The notes beneath the pieces are model-generated. The model did not search any database. It saw only the letters and a program-made list of their open reading frames with translations, and was not told where the DNA came from. From NCBI GenBank assembly GCA_021770755.1, contig JAETQI010000016.1, positions 1-64,000 on the forward strand: a DNA stretch of 64,000 bases, read 5' to 3'. This document shows, piece by piece, positions 1,126 through 11,599 of this stretch (position 1 is the first letter of the stretch; each line of letters opens with the position of its first letter). This DNA comes from Lachnospiraceae bacterium. GTDB lineage: Bacteria > Bacillota > Clostridia > Lachnospirales > Lachnospiraceae. The translations under genes were made by a program, and so were the position numbers.

Positions 1126-1821
1126 ATGGATAAAAAAACGAATGAAAAATTGCAGGCTTTAGTCGCCCAGGCGACGGCAGGGGATAAGAAAGCCCTGGAA
1201 ACACTTGTCGCAGGTGTGCAGGACATTGTATTTAACCTGTCCCTGCGAATGCTCGGCACTTTTGCGGACGCGGAGGACGGCAGGTTTGACAGCAGTATCG
1301 TGCATAACGATCCGAAGGATCTCACGTTCAGGCTGGTGCGCGACACCCGTTTCAGCCATGACAAATCGCCGTATAATCCCGCATTCCGCGCCCACATTTC
1401 CTCGAAAGGGAAACTGCCCGTCCCTGTCGGCTATTATCTGATGATCAGGCCCGGCGGCCAGTCCTTTTTGGGCGGCGGTCTGTTTGCGGACATGTTCAGG
1501 GACGCCACGACGATGGTGCGGGACTATATTTCCCACAATGGCAGGGCGTGGGAAGCGGTCATACATGATCCCGCGTTTGAGAAACATTTCACGGTAAAGG
1601 GAACAGCGCTGAAAAACGTTCCTGCGGGATATGAGAAGGATCACCCGCAGGCGGAGTACCTGAAATATAAGAGCTGGTATCTGGAGTATCCGCTGGGCGA
1701 TGATGAGCTGGGCGATGCGGAGGCGTTTCTTGCCAGGGCAGCGGAGCTTTTTCGGATCATGAAGCCGTTTAACGATTACCTGAACAGTGCGCTTTCGGGA
1801 TTTCAGATGCCGGAGCGGTAA
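1126..1821 (+). CDS. chimera: ECF sigma factor N-terminus fused to DUF2461 domain
   Basis: The 231-residue ORF joins two unrelated pieces. Residues 1-51 are the start of an ECF sigma factor (LVAGVQDIVFNLSLRMLGTF followed by ADAED, which is sigma region 2). From about residue 54 the protein is a DUF2461 family member with VHNDPKDLTFRLVRDTRFSH, SPYNPAFRAHISSKGK, GGGLFADMF and a C-terminal helical part. A normal DUF2461 protein has its own N-terminal segment, which is missing. The start has a perfect AGGAGG taken from the sigma gene. The junction therefore looks like an in-frame deletion that removed the rest of the sigma gene and the DUF2461 start. The product may be made, but neither parent function is likely to be complete. 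Confidence 0.8.
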   Translation: MDKKTNEKLQALVAQATAGDKKALETLVAGVQDIVFNLSLRMLGTFADAEDGRFDSSIVHNDPKDLTFRLVRDTRFSHDKSPYNPAFRAHISSKGKLPVPVGYYLMIRPGGQSFLGGGLFADMFRDATTMVRDYISHNGRAWEAVIHDPAFEKHFTVKGTALKNVPAGYEKDHPQAEYLKYKSWYLEYPLGDDELGDAEAFLARAAELFRIMKPFNDYLNSALSGFQMPER

Positions 1822-1919: not shown

Positions 1920-2666
1920 ATGTATGAGATTGACAAACAAAAGTTTGGTATGTTTATCGCGTCACTTCGCAGGGAAAAGGGGCTTACACAGAAGGAACTG
2001 GCGCGGCAGCTTTTCATTTCTGACAAGGCTGTCAGCAAGTGGGAGACGGGCGTCAGTATCCCTGATACAGCCCTGTTAATCCCGATCGCGGAGCTGTTTG
2101 GCGTCACCGTGACGGAACTTTTGATGTGTCGGCGCATGGAACAGGAAATGGACGCAGAGCTGATGGAGAGCGTGGTAAAGACAGCGGTCTCCTACCCTGC
2201 GCCAAAACCGGTGAGGGCGTATCAGGTAAAAAACAAATGGGGAAAGCTTTATGTCATTTCCCTGATCGTTTCCTGCATCGAGTTTCTGATCAGCCTGATG
2301 GGCGGGTACGTGACGACAGGGCTGATCGTGATCACGGGCTTAAGCATGGCATTTGGCGGATATTATTGTTTTCTGGCGGTCATGAAGCTGCCGCCGTACT
2401 ATGACGAAAACCGCATCAGTGTCTATTGTGATATGGGTTTTGAGATGAGTTTTCCCGGTCTGGCATTCAATAACAACAACTGGCAGCACATTCTGAATGC
2501 GGGACGCATCTGGGCGATCCTCTCCATGACAGTCTATCCGGTGGTCAATGCACTGCTGGTGTCCTGTTTACAGGACATGTGGTTTCTGGAGCTGATCCTT
2601 GTGCTGCCGGCTGCGCTGGGCGGCATATTTATTCCGGTCTATGTCGTGGGGAAGAAGTATGAGTGA
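1920..2666 (+). CDS. XRE-family regulator with C-terminal membrane domain
   Basis: Residues 6-65 form an XRE helix-turn-helix (GLTQKELARQLFISDKAVSK, WETGVSIPD). After a linker, four hydrophobic segments follow (about residues 108-125, 130-150, 190-210, 215-240), so the DNA-binding domain is tethered to the membrane. Proteins of this build are common in Clostridia and are usually thought to sense envelope or transport state, but no ligand is known. The start is set by AGGAGG about seven bases upstream. The gene end overlaps the end of a converging truncated gene by 38 bases. Confidence 0.85.
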   Translation: MYEIDKQKFGMFIASLRREKGLTQKELARQLFISDKAVSKWETGVSIPDTALLIPIAELFGVTVTELLMCRRMEQEMDAELMESVVKTAVSYPAPKPVRAYQVKNKWGKLYVISLIVSCIEFLISLMGGYVTTGLIVITGLSMAFGGYYCFLAVMKLPPYYDENRISVYCDMGFEMSFPGLAFNNNNWQHILNAGRIWAILSMTVYPVVNALLVSCLQDMWFLELILVLPAALGGIFIPVYVVGKKYE

Positions 2667-2880
2667 CGGCGATCCGCTCCTCGATCCGCTCCAGCCATGT
2701 CATTCCCGCACCGGTTACCTGGATCCTTCCCGCTTTCGGTGTTTCCCAGTAGTTTGCCTCGCCGTCCGTCAGGCGGATCAGGCAGGCAATGCCGTGAAAT
2801 ACCGCATCGTCGATCCGTATCTGATAATAGGGATAGTGCTGAAATCCCCAGCCATCTCTGTTCAGTCTCTTGTGCTTCAT
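2629..2880 (-). pseudogene. DUF402-like protein, C-terminally truncated
   Basis: The translated part contains RDGWGFQHYPYYQIRIDDAV, YWETPKAGRIQVTGAGMTWL and a preceding LIRLTDGEANYW, a pattern I associate with DUF402-type proteins in Firmicutes that are normally longer (150 residues or more). Here similarity stops at about residue 70 and the last 15-20 residues come from antisense sequence of the neighbouring XRE-membrane gene, so the 3' half has been lost. I place the start at 2880 because AGAGGA lies nine bases upstream; an ATG at 2904 is the alternative. It follows the HD-GYP gene closely and may be the distal end of that operon. Its exact family is moderately certain. Confidence 0.55.
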
Positions 2881-2905
2881 AACGGTTGTTCCTCTCTTTT
2901 TCATT

Positions 2906-4381
2906 TTATCCTGCGATGCAATCCTGCGCGAGCGCCTCTGACAGCCATTCCACGAGCCGCAGCTCCACTTTTCCTTCTTCTGCCATACTTCTTAGGATAC
3001 CGAACGCCTTCTCCTTTGGCATCGGTTTCTTATAGGGACGGTCGGATGCTGTCAGGGCATCGTAGATGTCTACAACGGTCAGGATCCGCGTCTCCAGATC
3101 GAGTTCATCTGCGGTCAGATGTTTTGGATAGCCGGTACCGTTCAGAAACTCATGGTGTGACGCTGCCCATTTTGGCACCATCGCATAATTTTGGTTGAAA
3201 CGTACTTTGTCAAGAATCTTTTCCGTCATTACCACATGATTTTCCATCGCTTCGCGATCTTTCTCGGTGAGTGTTCCCCGCCGGATGCTCAGACATTCTG
3301 TCTCGTGTCCGGTCAGGTACGGGATCACCGTGCCATTTTCGTCAACATGCTGTTTCGATGCGATACGGTGAACCCGCTCATAATTGTCATCATTCAGAAA
3401 GCCCATGGAATCGACCTCATGGATAAATGTTAGATCCGATGCCAGCTCTGCAATGGTCTCCGTGTACGTTTCCTCTGTGATCCTGCCCCGCAGCATGTCG
3501 ATCTCATAAAGCGCTTTCAGCAGTTCAAACCGGGCGTCCACGCCTGAAAGTTCACTGTCAAGGCGTGTTGCGCGGTTCATCACATTCAGTGGAACGATCA
3601 TCTTTCCGATGTCGTGAAGCAGCGCCGCAAGCTGCAGTTTCTCCTTCCGTTCACTGTCAAACGTCTCCTCGCAGATCCCTTTCTCATGCATTTTGGTAAT
3701 ATGGTCCGCAAGCAGCGCGGCATATTTCTCCACATTCCTGGTGTGTGACGCATTGTAGGGCGTGCGCTCGTCAAGGGCTGTCGTAAGTGCCTCCACAAAC
3801 GAATAAAGCTGTGCCTTGAGCGCTTCCACATAATTCAGGTTGCTAAGCTCGATGGCAGCTATCGAGCCCAAAGACCGGATAATGATATCGTACTGTTCAT
3901 CGAACGGGATGACATTTCCCTCGTCATCCATCGCATTGATCAACTGCAAAACCCCGATCAGCTCATTTTCGCTGTTCTCAAGCGGTATGACAAGCTGGGA
4001 TCTTGTATGATAGCCGGTGATGGCATCATACTGCCGCGGTCCGGAAAAATCAAAACGGTCGCTATTGTAGACATCGGGAATATTGACGACTTCCCGATGG
4101 ATCGCCGTGTACGCGCACACATTTTCTTCTTTCATCGGAACCGGCGGAATGTCGTCGATCAGCTCTCCGTCCACGCCGCGGCTCACGCCCATGGAGATTG
4201 TTTTCATGATCTTAAACAGGAGTTTGTTGTCCTCGTACAGATACAGTGTGCTCGCGTCGCAGTTTGTAATACGCATGCCGTTTTCCAAAATGGACGTCAG
4301 CAGGTGGTTCTGATTTTTCTCCGTGGACAACGCGATCCCGATATTAAGAATGTCTTTGAAATCCGAGTACTCTAAATGCAT
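2906..4381 (-). CDS. GAF + HD-GYP domain phosphodiesterase (c-di-GMP type)
   Basis: The 491-residue cytoplasmic protein has an N-terminal GAF domain (about 15-180) and an HD-GYP domain (about 190-475). Catalytic features are present: SHTRNV at 212-217, LLHDIGK at 254-260 (metal-binding HD), N-H at 381-382, HH at 409-410 and NGTGYP at 414-419, then VVDIYDALTASDRPY. About 110 residues are inserted between the HD and the later motifs. HD-GYP proteins hydrolyse cyclic di-GMP; GAF domains bind small ligands, including cyclic nucleotides. The start is at 4381, where AAGGAGG lies six bases upstream, rather than at the longer in-frame ATG. It is 11 bases behind the isomerase gene in the cyclase operon, so the cyclase product may be the GAF ligand; that link is inference. 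Confidence 0.9.
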   Translation of the reverse strand: MHLEYSDFKDILNIGIALSTEKNQNHLLTSILENGMRITNCDASTLYLYEDNKLLFKIMKTISMGVSRGVDGELIDDIPPVPMKEENVCAYTAIHREVVNIPDVYNSDRFDFSGPRQYDAITGYHTRSQLVIPLENSENELIGVLQLINAMDDEGNVIPFDEQYDIIIRSLGSIAAIELSNLNYVEALKAQLYSFVEALTTALDERTPYNASHTRNVEKYAALLADHITKMHEKGICEETFDSERKEKLQLAALLHDIGKMIVPLNVMNRATRLDSELSGVDARFELLKALYEIDMLRGRITEETYTETIAELASDLTFIHEVDSMGFLNDDNYERVHRIASKQHVDENGTVIPYLTGHETECLSIRRGTLTEKDREAMENHVVMTEKILDKVRFNQNYAMVPKWAASHHEFLNGTGYPKHLTADELDLETRILTVVDIYDALTASDRPYKKPMPKEKAFGILRSMAEEGKVELRLVEWLSEALAQDCIAG

Positions 4382-4392
4382 CGTTTGCCTCC

Positions 4393-5196
4393 TTATTCGT
4401 GTTCTTTTCCGCACAAAGGATAAATACCGTTCCTGCGCATGAATTCCAGTGACTTTTTCTGGGCTTCATATCCGCTGACCTCCACGAGCACAGTCGCGGT
4501 AATGTCATAAGCGTCCATCAGCTCCTGATAATGCCGCCAGTCGATCCGGCCTGTGCCGACCGGGCGGTGAAGGTCATTTTCCAGATCGTTGTCATTGATA
4601 TGCATATGCCGTGTCCAGGGCGCGAGTGCCCTGATCCATTCTTCCTGCGCACAGCCTGTCAGCGCCGCGTGGGCATAATCCAGACAGATCCCGAATCCCG
4701 CAGTGCGCTCCGCCATCTGCTGTGCCAACTCTGCCAGCACGTCCGGCGCTTCATCAAACATGTTTTCCATAAAAATCTGCTGCCCGGGGTATTCCTCCGC
4801 TAATTTTGCGAAAAATGCCAGATTCATCTCGAGCCATTGTTTCAGATAATGGGCGACGCGAAAACCTGCCAGCCGTCCTGTATGGAAAATCACGCCCCGG
4901 ACGCCCATGCGCTTTGCGATTTCCATCGTCTGGTGTACGCGCAGTTCGGACACCTGACGGATCAGCGGGTCACTGCTGTGCACGGTCACATCCAGAAACG
5001 CCCCGTGCAGGGTATCCTCCGAAAAGTCCGTGCGGTATTTCGCATAATACTGTATGATCTTCTCCTGCTCCTTGGGGGCATCCAGTATTCCTGGCAGGAA
5101 AAAGTCGTTGTATTCAAACGCGCAGCCGTACTCCGCCGCAAGTTCTAATGACCGTTCCATATTCCCGTACTCCGGGATCAGATATATTTGCTTCAT
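4393..5196 (-). CDS. sugar-phosphate isomerase/epimerase-like TIM-barrel protein
   Basis: The 267-residue protein belongs to the AP-endonuclease-2/xylose-isomerase-like TIM-barrel family. Recognisable parts are FEYNDFFLPG near the start, RMGVRGVIFHTGR, FMENMFDE, GICLDYAHAAL and HMHINDNDLENDLHRPVGTG, where Glu, Asp and His residues usually hold a divalent metal. Members isomerise or epimerise sugars or act as inositol-pathway enzymes; the substrate here is unknown. The start at 5196 has GAGGG six bases upstream; the ATG at 5214 has poor spacing. It sits between the cyclase and HD-GYP genes, an unusual place for a metabolic enzyme. Confidence 0.8.
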   Translation of the reverse strand: MKQIYLIPEYGNMERSLELAAEYGCAFEYNDFFLPGILDAPKEQEKIIQYYAKYRTDFSEDTLHGAFLDVTVHSSDPLIRQVSELRVHQTMEIAKRMGVRGVIFHTGRLAGFRVAHYLKQWLEMNLAFFAKLAEEYPGQQIFMENMFDEAPDVLAELAQQMAERTAGFGICLDYAHAALTGCAQEEWIRALAPWTRHMHINDNDLENDLHRPVGTGRIDWRHYQELMDAYDITATVLVEVSGYEAQKKSLEFMRRNGIYPLCGKEHE

Positions 5197-5210
5197 ATTA
5201 TGCCCTCTTC

Positions 5211-7034
5211 TCATCCTCTCGCCACATCATCCAACTGATAGACAAATACGCCGTTGCTTTTTCCCTTTAGCGGGATCTCACCGATCGGAGTGACCTGCAC
5301 GCGGTCTTTTACCGCAGCGTATACTTCGCTGCTGATCAGGATCTGTCCCCGCTTCGCATTGCTCTCAAGGCGGGCTGCCGTATTGACGGTATCCCCGATT
5401 GCCGTGTAGTCCATCCGGAAATCGCAGCCGATATTTCCGACCACGGCATTGCCGCAGTTTACACCGATTCCGAACGCAACGCTCTTCCCGAAGCGTTTCT
5501 CGAATTTTTCCGCGATCGCGTCTGCGCCCATCTTCATATCCCATGCTGTACAGACGGCACGGAAGATATAGTCGTCGAGGTCAAACGGCGCATTAAAGAC
5601 CGCCATCGTCGCATCCCCCACAAACTTGTCCAGCGTCCCGCCATTATCAAAAATGGATCTGGTCGTGAGGCTTAGATACTCGTTGAGGATTTCAACGACC
5701 TCCTCCGGCGCCAGGCTTTCCGACATTGTCGTAAACCCGCGGATATCCACAAAAAGCACGGCAATATGGCGGTTTTCCCCGCCGAGAACCAGCTCAAAAT
5801 CCTTGTCCCGGCTGATCTTGTCGACGACCTGCGGCGCGACATACTGCCGGAACACATTGAGTACGCGCCGTCTGCGCAGAAGCTCCACCAGATACCCGTG
5901 CACGATCTGCGCCAGATAGATCGCGGACACGGACAGCGGGAGCAGTATCACCGGCGCTATGATTCCCCGCTGATAGAGCAGCCGGGAACCAAAGACGGAC
6001 AAGGCAGCCAGAACCAGCGGCAGAAGCGTGGCGGGCAGGATCTTTAGCTCCCGCGACGGCAGGAATGCCGCAAGAAAGTACAGGCCGCATAGAATCCCCG
6101 CCGCCACACCGTAGAATATCGGCGGGACAGGAAGCTGTGTCTTTTTCTCTAATAATGCCTCGATAATATTGGCATGGATCTCAACGCCATACATCTGGCT
6201 GTTGTGCGCGATTGCAGGAGTGTAGGCATCCTGCATACCTACGGCGTAAGCTCCGACAAGCACGATGGCATCCCGAAACAGCGTCGCATCCACGGTGCCG
6301 TCCAGCACATCCGCCATGGAAACCACACTGTAGCCGCCTGGCTTGCCGGAATACGTAAAATAATACCGATTGTTCCCGCCGTAAGTTGCGGGTAAGACAG
6401 CCTCTTTCCCGCGGCTCTCCTGATAGCTTTTATAGATCTGCGCAGAAAAGCTGTATACCCGCTCTCCCTCATGGTCGAGATAAGCCATTGCCTGGCGCAC
6501 ATACCCGTCTGCATCCACCATGGTATTTACAAATCCGCAGGTCACATGCTGCCGGAGCACCGGATACGGTTCAAGCGTATGATCGACATGGTAGGGGTTG
6601 TAGACCACATTGCCGGTTTCGTCCGTTTCCGGCTGTTCCTTAAAAGAAAAGCCTGCCGCTGCCACCACATTTCCGGCTTCCGCACAGGCTCTGGCAAAGT
6701 GCCCGTCCGCCTCCGCCGCAGTCTGCTCACTGTAAATAACGTCCAGACCGATCACGGCAGGGCCTCCTGATTTGTCCGCGCTTAGGATCTCGATCAGCTT
6801 CGCCGGAATATCCCGGCTCCAGGTATTGACCGGACCGTATTGCTGCAGTGTCTTATCGTCGATCCCGATGATAAAGATCTTTTTATTTGTCACGGAACTT
6901 CGCTGATTCAGCCAGTCAGACACCTTCGCGTCCCAAAGGCCGGCGGCGCCGCAGAAATGAAACAAAGCTGACACCAATGTGACGATCACCGCGATCACCA
7001 TTACGCTCAATTTTTCTTTTTTCATCCTGATCAC
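5211..7034 (-). CDS. CHASE2-domain class III adenylate/guanylate cyclase
   Basis: The 607-residue protein starts with a transmembrane helix (about 10-30), then an extracytoplasmic CHASE2 sensor (about 35-300), three transmembrane helices (about 305-380) and a cytoplasmic class III cyclase domain (about 420-600). Metal-binding aspartates are D430 (LFVDIRGF) and D474 (FVGDATMA). K470 and T544 sit at the base-specifying positions, and N551 and R555 at the transition-state positions, so all catalytic groups appear present and ATP is the likely substrate (inference from K/T). The start is GTG at 7034, overlapping the stop of the FecR gene (GTGA); an ATG at 7025 is an alternative. Class III cyclases are rare in Clostridia, and CHASE2 next to FecR suggests the FecR lipoprotein feeds the sensor. 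Confidence 0.92.
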   Translation of the reverse strand: MIRMKKEKLSVMVIAVIVTLVSALFHFCGAAGLWDAKVSDWLNQRSSVTNKKIFIIGIDDKTLQQYGPVNTWSRDIPAKLIEILSADKSGGPAVIGLDVIYSEQTAAEADGHFARACAEAGNVVAAAGFSFKEQPETDETGNVVYNPYHVDHTLEPYPVLRQHVTCGFVNTMVDADGYVRQAMAYLDHEGERVYSFSAQIYKSYQESRGKEAVLPATYGGNNRYYFTYSGKPGGYSVVSMADVLDGTVDATLFRDAIVLVGAYAVGMQDAYTPAIAHNSQMYGVEIHANIIEALLEKKTQLPVPPIFYGVAAGILCGLYFLAAFLPSRELKILPATLLPLVLAALSVFGSRLLYQRGIIAPVILLPLSVSAIYLAQIVHGYLVELLRRRRVLNVFRQYVAPQVVDKISRDKDFELVLGGENRHIAVLFVDIRGFTTMSESLAPEEVVEILNEYLSLTTRSIFDNGGTLDKFVGDATMAVFNAPFDLDDYIFRAVCTAWDMKMGADAIAEKFEKRFGKSVAFGIGVNCGNAVVGNIGCDFRMDYTAIGDTVNTAARLESNAKRGQILISSEVYAAVKDRVQVTPIGEIPLKGKSNGVFVYQLDDVARG

Positions 7035-8503
7035 TTCCAGTATATTGTCAAGTCTTGGTTGATAGTGTCCGAGAAATCAAAATCCCATCCGCCCTGTACA
7101 TCCGGAGAAAGCTTCGGTTCTGCAGCATGATTTCCAGACGTCACTGTCTGTGTCCCGAATACGTTTCCCTGATATATGAATGTCACGGTATACGATGAAG
7201 TGTCATCTTCCGGGGGCTGTGATGATCCGCTGTCTCCCGGGGTTTCCGAGCCGCCGTTATTACCCGGGTTTTCTGAGCTGCTGCTGTCTCCCGGATTTTC
7301 CGAGCCGCTGTTATTACCTGGGTTTTCTGAGCTGCTGCTGTCTCCCGGGTTTTCCGAGTCGCCGTTATTACCTGGATTTTCCGAGCTGCTGTTATTTCCC
7401 GTGTTTTCCGAGCTGCTGTTATTTCCCGGGGGTTCTGAGCTGCTGTTATTTCCCGTGTTTTCCGAGCTGCTGTTATTTCTGGGTGGATCCGTAATGCCGG
7501 GATTTTTCGGGATCACGGGATCCATGGGGAAAACCGTGCTGCCGGGATTCTCTGGTGTTACGTTATCCGTGGATGATAACAGGGCGCTGGTGTCCTCCGG
7601 TATCCTGTGATCTGCCGGGTTTTTGGGATCAGCGCTTTCTGCATTCCTGTTTTGTCCCGTGCTTTCGGATCTCCTGAAATCACCGCTTTTTTTCCTTTCG
7701 ATGTCCGTGCCGGGTTTCTTTCTGCCATTTGGCGAGCCGGGGCGCAGCTCCTGCCCGCTGGTTTCGGGCGCGCTGTCTTTTTCAGCGGTGATCTTTCCGG
7801 CATCCGCTTTCTGATCGATCCGTCCGCTCAACTGTGAAAGTACTTCGGGCGGAAGTTCACCGTAGTCAGTCTCCGCAGGCTCTCCCTGGTATTCTGTTCC
7901 CTTGGAATCGCTGCGGATCACGATCTCTTTTCCGCTCTCGACGATCACCTCATCCCCGTAGGTGCCATCTGCTGACAGCAGCTTCAACGACACGCTTCCT
8001 TCGAAAGTCGTTACTTTTGTATAGATATCCGCGTTTTTATCATGCGTCACTTCCACGCGGAAAATCGTTCCGCGCACTGCCATGACAGAATTCGGCGTCT
8101 GTACTTCATACAGGGAATCCTTGCTCAGCGGATTCTGGATCTCGTTTGTAATAGCGCCTGTTTCCAGGCTGATCGTCGTCCGCGAATCCTCCTTTGAGCC
8201 TTCAGCCTGGATCGAAAATACGGTATTCTCCTCCGCTGAGACATATTTATCATCGTCAAGTTTCAAACGCATCATGCTTTCCGCAGCCACCGTAACCCGG
8301 TCCTTTGCCTCGAGATAGAGATTTTCCACTGCGTTGATCACGCCGCTCTCCTGACGCTCGATCTGCGCTGTTCCTTTCAGGTTATAGATCTGCACGGAGC
8401 GAAAAGAATCTTTGCTGGCGCCGCAGCCTGCCAAAAGCACTGCCGCCGCTATTCCCGCCGCAAAACGCGCTGCTGCCTTTCTCACCGGTATTCGTCTCTG
8501 CAT
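7031..8503 (-). CDS. FecR-domain lipoprotein with repeat linker and B-repeat-like C-terminus
   Basis: The 490-residue protein has a lipoprotein signal with lipobox LLAGC (Cys27), a FecR domain (about 35-200, with SVMAVRGTIFRVEV), and a low-complexity hydrophilic region. That is followed by tandem NSSSENPGN-type repeats (about 330-430) and a final module YTVTFIYQGNVFGTQTV that resembles the InlB/Listeria-Bacteroides repeat. It should be anchored to the outside of the membrane and reach through the wall. FecR domains elsewhere bind peptidoglycan-side or partner proteins, and FecR-CHASE2 gene pairs are known from other phyla. The stop overlaps the start of the CHASE2 cyclase, so the two are co-translated. 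The repeat number probably varies between strains. Confidence 0.88.
   Translation of the reverse strand: MQRRIPVRKAAARFAAGIAAAVLLAGCGASKDSFRSVQIYNLKGTAQIERQESGVINAVENLYLEAKDRVTVAAESMMRLKLDDDKYVSAEENTVFSIQAEGSKEDSRTTISLETGAITNEIQNPLSKDSLYEVQTPNSVMAVRGTIFRVEVTHDKNADIYTKVTTFEGSVSLKLLSADGTYGDEVIVESGKEIVIRSDSKGTEYQGEPAETDYGELPPEVLSQLSGRIDQKADAGKITAEKDSAPETSGQELRPGSPNGRKKPGTDIERKKSGDFRRSESTGQNRNAESADPKNPADHRIPEDTSALLSSTDNVTPENPGSTVFPMDPVIPKNPGITDPPRNNSSSENTGNNSSSEPPGNNSSSENTGNNSSSENPGNNGDSENPGDSSSSENPGNNSGSENPGDSSSSENPGNNGGSETPGDSGSSQPPEDDTSSYTVTFIYQGNVFGTQTVTSGNHAAEPKLSPDVQGGWDFDFSDTINQDLTIYWK
7225..7480 (-). repeat. in-frame tandem repeat within FecR lipoprotein gene
   Basis: Between about 7225 and 7480, a 27-base unit coding for nine residues (roughly SSSENPGNN with S/G/D exchanges) is repeated about nine times, sometimes in 54-base double units. 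The unit keeps the reading frame. It makes a flexible Ser/Asn/Pro-rich spacer between the FecR domain and the C-terminal module. The regular coding phase and the absence of constant spacer lengths with variable sequence rule out a CRISPR array. Confidence 0.85.
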
Positions 8504-8521
8504 ATAATCCTCCTCGCATCC

Positions 8522-9889
8522 TTATTGTTTCGTAAAAACGTACGTCCCGTCCGCGGGGACATAAAAGGTATTTCCGCCCTGATAGACTGTAGCATCTCCC
8601 TCGATCTTCCATGTACCCGGACCAAATACATATGCGGTCCCCGCCTGCAGCTTTCGTGTTCCGCTTTCGGAAACGGTCAGGTCAGCCGGTTCGTCTCCGC
8701 CGTCTTTTACAAAAGAGACACTCACCGTGACATTGGAAGCCGGCATTGAAAAGCTGTTGTTTTCTGACACTGCCACCGAACTGCCGTCAGCGGTTGTGAC
8801 CATGATTTTATCCACCGTATATCCGATATCCGGGTGCGGCGTCACGGTAACCTGTTCCCCGTCGTATGCCTGCGTTACGTCATTTCCGGCTACCGATATC
8901 GTAAAGCTTCCGCCCTCTGTCGCAGATTCTGGGACAAGTGAAAACAATTGTGTTTTCCAGACCGGAGCGAGCAGCATGATATGATCTTGTCCTATATCTG
9001 CATCATATTCGCCCTTTGAAATCACGTCGTCCGGGGAACATTCCCTGGCTTTGTTCTGTACATAGCGCCCGCTGTCGCAGCTCCACACCGTCCAGCTTGC
9101 CAGGCTCCCCGGCCGTTCCACCAATGCCTGTTCGCTCAGCGGTTTCCCGAACAGTACCACTTTGTTTTCTTCCACATCGTCATACGGGATCAGAATACCC
9201 ACACTGATCTGGCTGCTTCCAGTATATAGCAGCGCCATGGCTCCCGGTTCCACACCCGTAACCGTGATCTCCTGATCTTCCGAAATGTTCGCGATCGTAT
9301 ATGTACGCAGATCCTCCGCCAGCTCCAGCGTTGTACCGTTTGCTTTCACCTGAAAAGACGCCGATGACACATATCCTTCCGAATTCTTCACCCATATCTC
9401 AAAGGCATAGTCACTCCCCGCAGGAACATCCACACGTCCGCCTGGTGCGATCTCCTCGCCGTCCGCGTATATGGTATATCCCTCTCCACTCGAAAACGTG
9501 ACAGAATAGGAAGCAGCCTTCGTCTCCTTCTGGGCAGGCGGGCTCTGCGTTTCTAAATAAGTGGTGCTGTCGGATTCTGCTTCGGTCTGGATCTCATGAT
9601 CGGATTCTGTTTCGGTCTGGATCTCATGATCTGATTGCGTTTCGGTCTGGATCTCGCTGTCGGATTCTGTTTCGGTCTGGATCTCACGATCGGATTGCAT
9701 CTCAGTCTCATTCTCGCTGTCGGATTCTGTTTCGGTTTGATGTTCTTCGTCGGATCCTGTTTCGGTCTGATGTTGTTCATTTAATGGTACATCGTCGCCT
9801 GTCTCCGCCGCCAGTCCGATCCCCGGCAGTTCACAGACCAACAGTACTGCCAGCCATATTGCGCACAACCCTTTCCATCTTTGCTTCAT
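8522..9889 (-). CDS. secreted protein with acidic Thr/Glu repeats, surface-exposed
   Basis: The 455-residue protein has a signal peptide (residues 1-28, ending GLAAE). A stretch of SDSEIQTETQ-like repeats follows (about 40-110), then beta-rich domains with YSVTFSSGEGYTIYADGEEI and TEGGSFTISVAGNDVTQAYD. It ends in a small domain finishing GTYVFTKQ. No sorting motif or anchor is visible. The domain at about 310-395 looks like a divergent bacterial repeat (VTPHPDIGYTVDKIMVTTAD), as found in surface proteins. It overlaps the upstream membrane gene by four bases (ATGA) and precedes the FecR gene by 18 bases. A ligand- or wall-binding partner of the FecR/CHASE2 pair is the simplest idea, but there is no direct evidence. 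Confidence 0.85.
   Translation of the reverse strand: MKQRWKGLCAIWLAVLLVCELPGIGLAAETGDDVPLNEQHQTETGSDEEHQTETESDSENETEMQSDREIQTETESDSEIQTETQSDHEIQTETESDHEIQTEAESDSTTYLETQSPPAQKETKAASYSVTFSSGEGYTIYADGEEIAPGGRVDVPAGSDYAFEIWVKNSEGYVSSASFQVKANGTTLELAEDLRTYTIANISEDQEITVTGVEPGAMALLYTGSSQISVGILIPYDDVEENKVVLFGKPLSEQALVERPGSLASWTVWSCDSGRYVQNKARECSPDDVISKGEYDADIGQDHIMLLAPVWKTQLFSLVPESATEGGSFTISVAGNDVTQAYDGEQVTVTPHPDIGYTVDKIMVTTADGSSVAVSENNSFSMPASNVTVSVSFVKDGGDEPADLTVSESGTRKLQAGTAYVFGPGTWKIEGDATVYQGGNTFYVPADGTYVFTKQ
9560..9775 (-). repeat. in-frame acidic repeat within secreted protein gene
   Basis: A degenerate 30-36-base unit coding for (S/T)D(S/H/R)EIQTETE/Q is repeated about seven times between about 9560 and 9775. 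The unit is in frame and gives a strongly acidic spacer right after the signal peptide. As with the repeat in the FecR gene, such tracts change length by slippage or recombination. Confidence 0.8.
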
Positions 9890-11223
9890 GTTCTCTTCCT
9901 CTTGACCTTTCTAAATTGATTGAACGAACTTTTTCTGTTCCTGTTCCGGATCAGCAGTGCCATCCACGCGTAAAGCGCCAGCGCGGGGCTTAGCAGTGCA
10001 CGATATGTAAAAAAAGCGTGCAGGTAAGAATGGTTGTTCAGCACCAGATAGCGCAGAAATACCATTGCGCCTAACAAAAGCAGCAGTCTCCCGGCCACAT
10101 CCTTTTGTCCCGCTTTTCTAAACAGATACCACGCGGAACCGGCGACCGCCGCGGCGATCAACAGCACTCCGGCAGCGCACCGCAAATCCACGCGCGCCCC
10201 GCCGCCGCCAAGCGCTGTCAGGTTTGCCGCGAGCGCTGCCGGAAGACGCAGCAAGGGATTTTCCGGCCCTTCACCTGCGAGACTCCCGCCAAAGCGCTCG
10301 CCAGCCGATCTGATCGCCGCCCGGAACTGATTCTCCCCGGTAACAAGCGATGCTGCTGTCCATTTTGCCAGAAAGGTGCCCCCGTAAGCGCCGAGCCAGA
10401 AAATACCGCAGCAGAAGAGCAGACAGATATTTTTGCGGAGCTCCCCCAGATGTTCCTCCGCCTCCCGCACTGCGACGACGAGGATCAGCGGCACCAGTAT
10501 GACGACCATTTCCGCCGTCAGAAAGTCAAAAAACGCCGTCAGCACACCTCCGGCTGCCGATAAAACAACCAGATACCGGTCGCCGTACTGTTCCAGCCAC
10601 AAGTACAGCGGCGTGAGCAAAAAGCAGATGAGGAACACCGGCTGGTATTCTAAGCTCAAACGGATATTCCATATCTGAACCGTCGCCAGAGATGCCAAAA
10701 GCGCCAGCGCCAGCAGCACATGCCCCCGCCGTACCAGCACAAATACGGAGAAAGCGACCAGCACACCGGCTGCCACCGCACCGCAGTACTTCATCCCGCG
10801 GACGTCCGTCACAAGGTGCATCAGGCGGACAAAAGCAGCCGAACCGTGCCAGTAGCGTGTATACTGGGTGTTCGGTTTCACGCCCGCGTCCATCACCGTG
10901 AGATACAGGCCGATGCTCTCCCCGAGGGCTTCCCCGTCATAATATTTTGTATCCAGCGAAGCAATGGCAGGATCGCCGATTCCCATATTCCAGCTAATGT
11001 TCAACAGGATCGCATCCGCATAATTATCACTGACTGCATTCATGCGCTGACCGTTCTCAAAGGAGAACGCCTCCTTTGTCCGGTAAGACAGGGCGCTTTG
11101 TTCCATATTGTCTCTCAGCGCCGCATTGGGGATCATAGATGCAAGTACAAGCATCAGCCAGAGTGCTGCAAGAAGACCTGCGGATACCAGTAGGGGTAGT
11201 ATTATCCATTTTAGCCTGTTCAT
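9886..11223 (-). CDS. polytopic membrane protein, unknown (glycosyltransferase-like topology)
   Basis: The 445-residue protein has about ten hydrophobic helices, starting with KWIILPLLVSAGLLAALWLM. A soluble extracytoplasmic loop of roughly 100 residues follows the first helix (it contains RYWHGSAAFVRLMHLV), and the C-terminus is basic. This layout resembles membrane GT-C-type or O-antigen-polymerase-like proteins, but no diagnostic acidic motif is clear, so I do not assign a reaction. The start at 11223 has AAGGAG seven bases upstream. It is the first gene of the operon that runs to the HD-GYP gene, so it may prepare or export something that the surface proteins detect. Confidence 0.75.
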   Translation of the reverse strand: MNRLKWIILPLLVSAGLLAALWLMLVLASMIPNAALRDNMEQSALSYRTKEAFSFENGQRMNAVSDNYADAILLNISWNMGIGDPAIASLDTKYYDGEALGESIGLYLTVMDAGVKPNTQYTRYWHGSAAFVRLMHLVTDVRGMKYCGAVAAGVLVAFSVFVLVRRGHVLLALALLASLATVQIWNIRLSLEYQPVFLICFLLTPLYLWLEQYGDRYLVVLSAAGGVLTAFFDFLTAEMVVILVPLILVVAVREAEEHLGELRKNICLLFCCGIFWLGAYGGTFLAKWTAASLVTGENQFRAAIRSAGERFGGSLAGEGPENPLLRLPAALAANLTALGGGGARVDLRCAAGVLLIAAAVAGSAWYLFRKAGQKDVAGRLLLLLGAMVFLRYLVLNNHSYLHAFFTYRALLSPALALYAWMALLIRNRNRKSSFNQFRKVKRKRT

Positions 11224-11342
11224 CCTCCGGCTCCTTTCCACTGCTCGCAATGAACGGTATATATATTAGTATAACTATAGCATATAATACTGCCAGTGTA
11301 CCACACATTTTTTCAAACAGCAACGTTCTTCTGGATTCGGAT

Positions 11343-11530
11343 AGTGTAACTTTACTTGGGGAATTTCATTGACAGACTTACTACAGCTACTGTCTCGGCA
11401 GATATCAGCAACCGATATACGCTCTTATAGATGGTTTTCGACCTTCATCGCTTCTATATATACAGGATATCATAGGAATACATGTTCTGTACCATTGAAT
11501 ATAAATAATTCCCCAAGTAATGTTACACTG
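11343..11530. repeat. MITE-like element with about 23-bp terminal inverted repeats
   Basis: AGTGTAACTTTACTTGGGGA (continuing AATT) at 11343-11365 is the near-perfect reverse complement of 11507-11530 (AATTCCCCAAGTAATG, then TTACACT). The arms are about 140 bases apart and enclose no ORF of note. The size and the ends fit a non-autonomous insertion element or a deleted insertion sequence. No clear target duplication is seen. It separates the start of the signalling operon from the divergent lipoprotein gene, so it may affect both promoters. Confidence 0.55.
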
Positions 11531-11599
11531 TCTTTGTGCGGGAAGTATTTTATTTCCTTTCTCACTGTGATATAATTGAGGCAGGAGGTGTGATAACAC

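Follow-up and report, generated by a model that had tools for sequence, protein, structure and literature searches.

Gene clusters in which a CHASE2 adenylate cyclase is encoded together with a protein that has a FecR domain and with a phosphodiesterase to which hydrolysis of cyclic AMP (cAMP) is ascribed have been described in Campylobacterota (PMC9239204). These clusters include an outer-membrane FecR protein and a TPR protein, and the section of that paper devoted to them describes neither a GAF-HD-GYP protein nor the kind of phosphodiesterase (PMC9239204). Among enzymes that degrade cyclic nucleotides, Rv1339, YhfI and CpdA of C. glutamicum belong to the atypical class II phosphodiesterases (PMC9293780). 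Here we describe a six-gene cluster in a stretch of 64,000 nucleotides (hereafter the window; contig JAETQI010000016.1, positions 1 to 64,000) from a Lachnospiraceae bacterium. A CHASE2 cyclase and a FecR protein are common to both systems, the phosphodiesterase of the present cluster being a predicted one, whereas the Lachnospirales version is distinguished by an enzyme of the endonuclease IV or RNase Z type, by a GAF-HD-GYP protein and by secreted repeat proteins. An earlier note on this stretch had remarked that FecR-CHASE2 pairs are known elsewhere, which is right, and the published cluster with its cAMP phosphodiesterase is an even closer precedent (PMC9239204). Among open-licence PMC papers our searches turned up no title that deals with a circuit of this kind in Clostridia, and nothing that joins CHASE2, HD-GYP, cAMP and Firmicutes, nothing that joins endonuclease IV, cyclic nucleotide phosphodiesterase and TIM barrel, and nothing that joins "xylose isomerase-like TIM barrel" and adenylate cyclase.

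The core of the cluster, consisting of the FecR protein, the CHASE2 cyclase, a TIM-barrel protein and the GAF-HD-GYP protein, is conserved in Lachnospirales. The observed basis of our proposal is gene content, gene order, conservation, residue conservation, fusions and replacements, and from these we propose, with somewhat more belief than doubt, a trans-envelope relay that couples the state of the cell surface to cyclic di-GMP (c-di-GMP) via a cyclic mononucleotide, in which every activity, the GAF ligand, the direction of control and the signal are predicted. The FecR partner and an acidic-repeat protein would convert a surface state into a change in the extracellular CHASE2 domain, upon which the membrane cyclase would make cAMP (cyclic GMP, cGMP, being less likely). 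cAMP would bind to the GAF domain of the GAF-HD-GYP protein and thereby alter, in either direction, the hydrolysis of c-di-GMP by the HD-GYP domain; the genome should make c-di-GMP, judging from its 12 GGDEF matches. Finally the TIM barrel, as a tri-metal enzyme of the endonuclease IV type, would hydrolyze the cyclic mononucleotide and reset the switch.

Gene cluster and its conservation in Lachnospirales

The cluster lies on the minus strand from 11223 to 2906, as confirmed by translation and domain scans, and is composed of the following genes.

9886..11223, minus strand: polytopic membrane protein (P0001), accessory, without a Pfam or NCBIfam family
8522..9889, minus strand: secreted acidic-repeat protein (P0002) with InlB-B-like repeat PF18998
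7031..8503, minus strand: FecR-domain lipoprotein (P0003), PF04773
5211..7034, minus strand: CHASE2-class III nucleotide cyclase (P0004), predicted adenylate cyclase; PF05226 150.8 bits, PF00211 95.6 bits
4393..5214, minus strand: TIM-barrel protein (P0005), endonuclease IV/CbiR-like, predicted metal phosphodiesterase; AP_endonuc_2 PF01261
2906..4381 (alternative start GTG 4414), minus strand: GAF-HD-GYP protein (P0006), predicted c-di-GMP phosphodiesterase controlled by a cyclic nucleoside monophosphate (cNMP); PF01590, PF13487

The closely packed operon that had been read from the sequence is borne out by the joints: 4-base overlaps between the polytopic and secreted genes, the FecR and cyclase genes, and the cyclase and TIM genes, a gap of 18 bases between the secreted and FecR genes, and one of 11 bases before ATG 4381, the later of the two candidate starts for HD-GYP. 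A consensus scan placed a minus-strand terminator-like site at 8563-8541, at the 3' extremity of the acidic-repeat gene and ahead of the 18-base gap; a common transcript for all six genes is thus putative. A second minus-strand site lies at 4904-4892 within the TIM gene, and the window holds 19 such sites on both strands versus 9.2 in shuffles. The Rfam scan of the window gave 0 matches. The 4.74-Mb genome to which the window belongs has one CHASE2 match.

For the conservation of the gene set, a search was made with two peptide patterns from the TIM barrel only, and the loci of the best 80 of 270 relatives, whose record titles are mostly Lachnospiraceae or one of its genera, were scanned in six frames. 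Besides the TIM gene, present in all 80, these TIM-first loci contain the cyclase in 77, HD-GYP in 69, FecR in 67, and a metallo-beta-lactamase (MBL) in 0. The cyclase is directly upstream of the TIM gene in 70/80 (frames within 400 bases), the TIM gene directly upstream of HD-GYP in 65/80, and cyclase, TIM and HD-GYP are contiguous in that order in 61/80. The cyclase is missing from L122 and from two contigs of <7 kb, L128 and L129. Among the named records with this core is Lachnospiraceae bacterium COE1 (L118). The earlier note had made its reading depend on a gene order that recurs beyond one strain, and the gene set is indeed strongly conserved. The FecR-cyclase-TIM-HD-GYP order of the window was found in 23 of the 77 loci with a called TIM open reading frame (ORF), a count from a simple ORF choice that misses genes masked by antisense ORFs. 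In two loci (L065 and L069) the membrane protein, a family 2 glycosyltransferase, the secreted protein and FecR come after HD-GYP, and the order of the window (membrane, secreted, FecR, cyclase, TIM, HD-GYP) is a rearrangement of theirs. Together with loci found in other ways, 134 loci were examined, of which 123 are distinct; most were found via the cyclase or TIM gene, and their counts are therefore not frequencies.

CHASE2 cyclase and surface proteins

P0004 exceeds the CHASE2 cut-off of 26.3 bits by far, and its catalytic domain, residues 380-607, lies above the PF00211 cut-off and carries the metal, substrate and transition-state residues of class III cyclases. The residues concerned (D430, K470, D474, T544, N551, R555) are kept in 29/29 relatives; their roles, as well as those of the HD-GYP residues below, are the ones we take them to have. 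The K470/T544 pair presumably marks ATP as the substrate, which suggests cAMP as the product and makes cGMP less likely. The hydrophobic segments that flank the CHASE2 domain lead us to infer that it lies outside the membrane. Matches to P0004 occur in 42/116 genomes, its own included, and are near full length in 32 of 47 match rows.

FecR is present in 95/123 loci. P0003 consists of a lipobox LLAGC (by eye), a low-complexity stalk and a repeat-like C-terminal domain, and is the probable extracellular partner of CHASE2. In P0002, a C-terminal segment (GTAY..G.W...GD..VY.GG.TFYV) is repeated among relatives (by eye), and homologues of P0001 are found in 8 further fetched loci (L065, L069, L121, L143, L139, L113, L159, L124). 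A family 2 glycosyltransferase gene lies between the polytopic and secreted genes at L065:13594-14289 and L069:13597-14298, hinting that the surface proteins or a glycan are modified.

GAF-HD-GYP protein and putative alternative readers

The HD-GYP residues H224, H267, D268, K271, H393, H420, H421 and D449 of P0006 are kept in 27/27 rows of one alignment (A7) and 21/21 of another (A5), G428-Y429-P430 is invariant, and the HD, HDIGK, HH and GYP motifs are all present. It had been claimed that every catalytic residue of the cyclase and the HD-GYP is visible, and their retention in all aligned relatives agrees with this. The model of P0006 by AlphaFold2 (predicted local distance difference test, pLDDT, 88.1; predicted template modeling score, pTM, 0.74) shows a helical insert of ~90 residues that separates HDIGK from the second metal motif, and this insert recurs in 20/21 aligned rows, the exception being the unrelated L042. 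Such an insert may alter specificity, and the HD-GYP might act on another substrate, for example 3'3'-cGAMP, or be a non-enzymatic adaptor; a cGAMP-specific HD-GYP (5z7c) is indeed among the sequence matches. We consider this improbable, since the motif residues are invariant, 4mcw, the top fold match, combines a GAF domain with an HD-GYP that acts on c-di-GMP, the genome has its 12 GGDEF matches, and one circuit locus contains a PF00027-GGDEF protein.

Against PDB sequences the GAF domain of P0006, residues 12-205, matched PDE5A, CyaB2, PDE2A, PDE6, PDE10A and 4mcw and nothing else to E 0.1; CyaB2 and cyclic nucleotide phosphodiesterases account for 17 of the 18 rows, and the remaining one is 4mcw, an HD-GYP protein with GAF. 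The fold matches of P0006 begin with 4mcw, followed by PDE5A, PDE2A, CyaB2, the cAMP-bound Lcd1 GAF, PDE6 and PDE10A, and the GAFs of fRMsr and PtsP appear only from rank 41. Judged by sequence, the P0006 GAF is closest to cyclic-nucleotide-binding GAFs, sharing the branch of PDE2/5/6/10 and CyaB2. The domain order of 4mcw is the same, the helical insert of the HD-GYP setting P0006 apart. D130, G134, T137 and S139 of the GAF are invariant in 27/27 TIM-type proteins. NKFDE is the motif of cNMP-binding GAFs. Here N and F are kept and D and E are variable, and the lysine is absent (A in 23/27, K in 2/27), unlike in the phosphodiesterase and CyaB2 GAFs, so that binding of a cyclic nucleotide by the P0006 GAF is a prediction.

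Support from another direction comes from proteins with PF00027, the cyclic-nucleotide-binding domain. HD-GYP is found in 92/123 loci (including L042, an ordinary HD-GYP without GAF that was excluded from A5) and PF00027 in 10/123, never both in one locus. In the nine Pfam-checked circuit loci the PF00027 proteins all have the R-x-A-T phosphate cassette (9/9, by eye), and the domain stands alone or is fused to GGDEF (L046), SpoIIE (L139, L153) or DUF2225 (L061); the PF00027 match of L059, from the scan of the 123 loci, is a candidate. On the cyclase tree (52 labelled rows) the HD-GYP/PF00027 label requires 8 changes, also 8 without L042 and 7 without L042 and L059, and at least 6 are forced by starred branches. 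The replacement of GAF-HD-GYP by PF00027 suggests independent support for cNMP reading by the former. The genome of the window encodes 4 PF00027 proteins, 0/4 with the cassette arginine (by eye), which makes the GAF-HD-GYP the likely reader there; a GAF search of the same genome gave 2 weak matches, and the GAF of P0006 itself was not among the matches listed. The earlier note had the GAF domain read the cyclase product, and this is partly upheld: the nearest GAFs, the Lcd1 fold match and the PF00027 stand-ins are in its favor, and the missing NKFDE lysine is not. Two further facts count against the reader scheme. The label was assigned per fetched stretch, and one genome (G109) has the PF00027 locus L061 plus a GAF-HD-GYP at L047; in addition, the cyclase and TIM genes occur with neither reader in 11/123 loci.

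Among the fusions, CHASE2 is joined directly to HD-GYP, beside FecR, in L062, L063 and L147, and MBL is joined to GAF-HD-GYP in L144 and L145. The PF00027-GGDEF fusion (L046:11303-12220) is a putative cNMP-controlled diguanylate cyclase within a circuit locus.

TIM-barrel protein, phosphodiesterase or isomerase

P0005 had been named an isomerase, which we reject as its best reading on account of the model matches, the PDB profile search and the ligand alignment. The CbiR model is matched by 48/48 TIM members and endonuclease IV models by 45-47/48, isomerase models by fewer. P0005 itself remains below the cut-offs of CbiR NF041277 (44.2 bits, cut-off 105) and endonuclease IV TIGR00587 (22.2 bits, cut-off 129.65), and none of the NCBIfam isomerase/epimerase equivalogs is above cut-off for it (e.g., 15.6 vs 305 bits). 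When its profile was aligned by hhalign with 12 true Nfo sequences, all nine metal ligands, as we take them to be in Nfo, were paired; these (H70, H111, E150, D179, H182, H205, D214, H216, E245) are each invariant in 48/48. In the PDB profile search with the TIM family, MJ1311 and TTHB071 lead, then comes endonuclease IV, with sugar isomerases lower. It is thus more likely, as far as sequence comparison goes, that P0005 is a metal phosphodiesterase rather than an isomerase. It would share with CbiR and endonuclease IV the AP_endonuc_2 fold, the metal ligands and, by prediction, phosphodiester hydrolysis (PMC7733943), and it differs from them in falling below both cut-offs, in its gene partner, the cyclase, and in that the genome encodes a separate, true endonuclease IV.

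Several results weigh against this assignment. The best profile match, MJ1311 (3wqo), bears the title "D-tagatose 3-epimerase-like", and among the fold matches of the P0005 model (pLDDT 94.7, pTM 0.92) sugar epimerases equal or outrank endonuclease IV, only one of which is among the 50 rows of a second comparison; the fold of the model by itself would accommodate an epimerase. The nine ligands are also kept in 16 of 17 weaker TIM relatives, and therefore assign P0005 to a branch and not to a substrate; in each of six of the 17 that were scanned, the CbiR model is first or second best, below cut-off. The epimerase fold is not known to carry the third-metal D-x-H pair. This pair is present in the P0005 family, among whose matches the epimerase fold is common too, a comparison without an epimerase control: weak relatives of the TIM model were sought in the fetched loci for this role and none was found. 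Because the fold comparison fails to separate it, the isomerase is retained as a rival, according to which the TIM protein is a sugar isomerase/epimerase or a cobamide or cell-wall enzyme, the operon senses or processes a glycan, and the cyclase and HD-GYP are only co-regulated. This would suit the more numerous epimerases in the second fold comparison, the Pfam name "xylose isomerase-like", the weak match of a fructoselysine 3-epimerase model to 31/48 TIM members, and the surface proteins with the glycosyltransferase of L065/L069. We hold it to be unlikely, since no isomerase model matches as many members as the CbiR and endonuclease IV models do, the nine tri-metal ligands are kept, and the TIM gene is tied to the cyclase and is replaced, in a sister lineage, by an MBL from a group of the phosphodiesterase type.

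Exchange between TIM and MBL partners

In other Lachnospirales an MBL-fold gene lies beside, and often overlaps, the HD-GYP gene at the place of the TIM gene. The 123 loci contain TIM in 94, MBL in 12 and both in 0. Among 392 Lachnospirales genomes, the cyclase model is found in 64, TIM in 14 (rows >240 bits kept; 17 of 31 rows, at 75-158 bits, dropped), MBL in 48, and TIM and MBL together in 0. TIM or MBL is present in 59/64 cyclase-model genomes versus 3/328 others, also where the genes are on separate contigs (e.g., G291, G041, G358). In four of the 64 the match covers the CHASE2 half only: it comes from a CHASE2-HD-GYP fusion in G445 and from a different CHASE2 protein in G435, and it is placed at the end of a contig in both G339 and G278. 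Of the three other genomes with TIM or MBL, G406 carries a different CHASE2 protein at a distance of ~2 kb from the TIM gene (L148). Both types occur in separate genomes of genus code g23 (TIM in G059, G319, G352, G376, G387; MBL in G358, G445) and likewise of g189 (TIM in G312, G339, G362; MBL in G327). The cyclase model with TIM or MBL and without a full GAF-HD-GYP is found in 15 genomes, and the cyclase with GAF-HD-GYP and without TIM or MBL in 1 (G146, on a 3.9-kb contig); the phosphodiesterase-like gene tracks the cyclase more closely than HD-GYP does. CHASE2 proteins with C-terminal parts of other kinds were seen at L148:4809-6308, near a TIM gene, and L146:7713-9962.

The MBL members are RNase Z/YhfI-like: in PDB searches YhfI (6kns) ranks first or third, and 8/10 sequences contain the [T/S]HxHxDH motif (by eye), features shared with the atypical class II phosphodiesterases. 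The simplest joint reading of these sequences would be that TIM and MBL remove the cyclase product.

Against this, RNase Z models outscore the cyclic nucleotide phosphodiesterase model for MBL members, in which they differ from the atypical class II enzymes, and the member scanned reaches 53.3 bits with the NCBIfam cyclic nucleotide-degrading phosphodiesterase (cut-off 400). Neither partner is found in 17/123 loci. On the tree of 67 cyclases (60 labelled rows) the TIM/MBL label needs just 2 changes, the MBL type being one clade with the TIM locus L045 inside. The exclusivity is thus largely one tree split, the Fisher p-values are inflated, and we rejected strong statistics derived from it; equivalent roles rest on shared architecture, few exchanges and no co-occurrence. 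Some of the models were built from the same genomes, and excluding those leaves cyclase 51, TIM 10, MBL 36, both 0, neither 5. Absences were judged from the best 3-6 candidates scored per genome, several genomes being incomplete, and G097, one of the 15 without GAF-HD-GYP, carries a CHASE2-HD-GYP fusion.

A substrate other than the cyclase product may also be considered, with TIM and MBL cleaving pGpG, the linear product of HD-GYP, or another dinucleotide. The MBL-GAF-HD-GYP fusions, the position of TIM directly upstream of HD-GYP in those 65 of the 80 TIM-first loci, and the action of the endonuclease IV and RNase Z relatives on nucleic acid phosphodiesters would fit. This is distinctly improbable in our judgment, given the 15 genomes versus 1 above and the 6/123 cyclase-TIM loci that have PF00027 and no HD-GYP; in extracts, moreover, Rv1339, from the MBL neighborhood, is reported to act on cyclic mononucleotides but not on c-di-GMP (PMC9293780).

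Returning to hydrolysis of the cyclase product, we put at a little under an even chance the fuller proposal that the TIM gene defines a new class of phosphodiesterases for cyclic mononucleotides, built on the endonuclease IV fold and devoted to CHASE2 cyclases, and that it belongs to a self-contained relay from cAMP to c-di-GMP in which the readers are interchangeable (GAF-HD-GYP, PF00027 alone, PF00027-GGDEF, PF00027-SpoIIE) and which many gut Lachnospirales carry. The circuit appears real and conserved, with one potentially new enzyme class. If true, it would link a surface protein to two second messengers by a complete chain in a large group of commensal gut bacteria, would offer a natural set of exchanged readers from which the role of each part can be told, and may add a new class of cyclic nucleotide phosphodiesterase.

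Neighboring features

Two further features flank the operon.

2629..2904, minus strand: short ORF 3' of the operon, probably not part of it, without a family match
11340..11532, no strand: 193-bp element resembling a miniature inverted-repeat transposable element, bounded by terminal inverted repeats of 26 nt, at a distance of 117 bp upstream from the first operon gene and not part of the circuit

The short ORF (2904-2629) had been taken for a truncated DUF402-like gene, a reading that we dropped: it has no match in Pfam or NCBIfam, and of 60 genomes only its own gave a match, the other 59 having none. Its end overlaps an opposite-strand helix-turn-helix gene at 1920-2666. The 193-bp element has 54 match rows at ~34 genome places, mostly of its ends and often 85-115 bases from contig starts, with one other near-full copy (G000:C44:12974-13175), a distribution as expected for a high-copy insertion sequence family. 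On the plus strand, window positions 1126-1821 encode a DUF2461 protein (PF09365, matched from profile position 45). Its initial ~50 residues resemble the N-terminus of the sigma-70 family (by eye, without a Pfam match), and a deletion fusion is possible.

In other loci, the region upstream of the cyclase contains a BrxC/BrxD-like ATPase gene, at L032:5806-7077 and at L036:1966-3255 (PF10923, >480 bits each), preceded in L032 by a DUF4391-like gene, and ORFs of similar size are present in L038-L040. A CoaD/CoaE-like fusion gene follows the MBL-HD-GYP-cyclase set at L054:5158-6231 (Pfam) and L058:5251-6399 (by eye).

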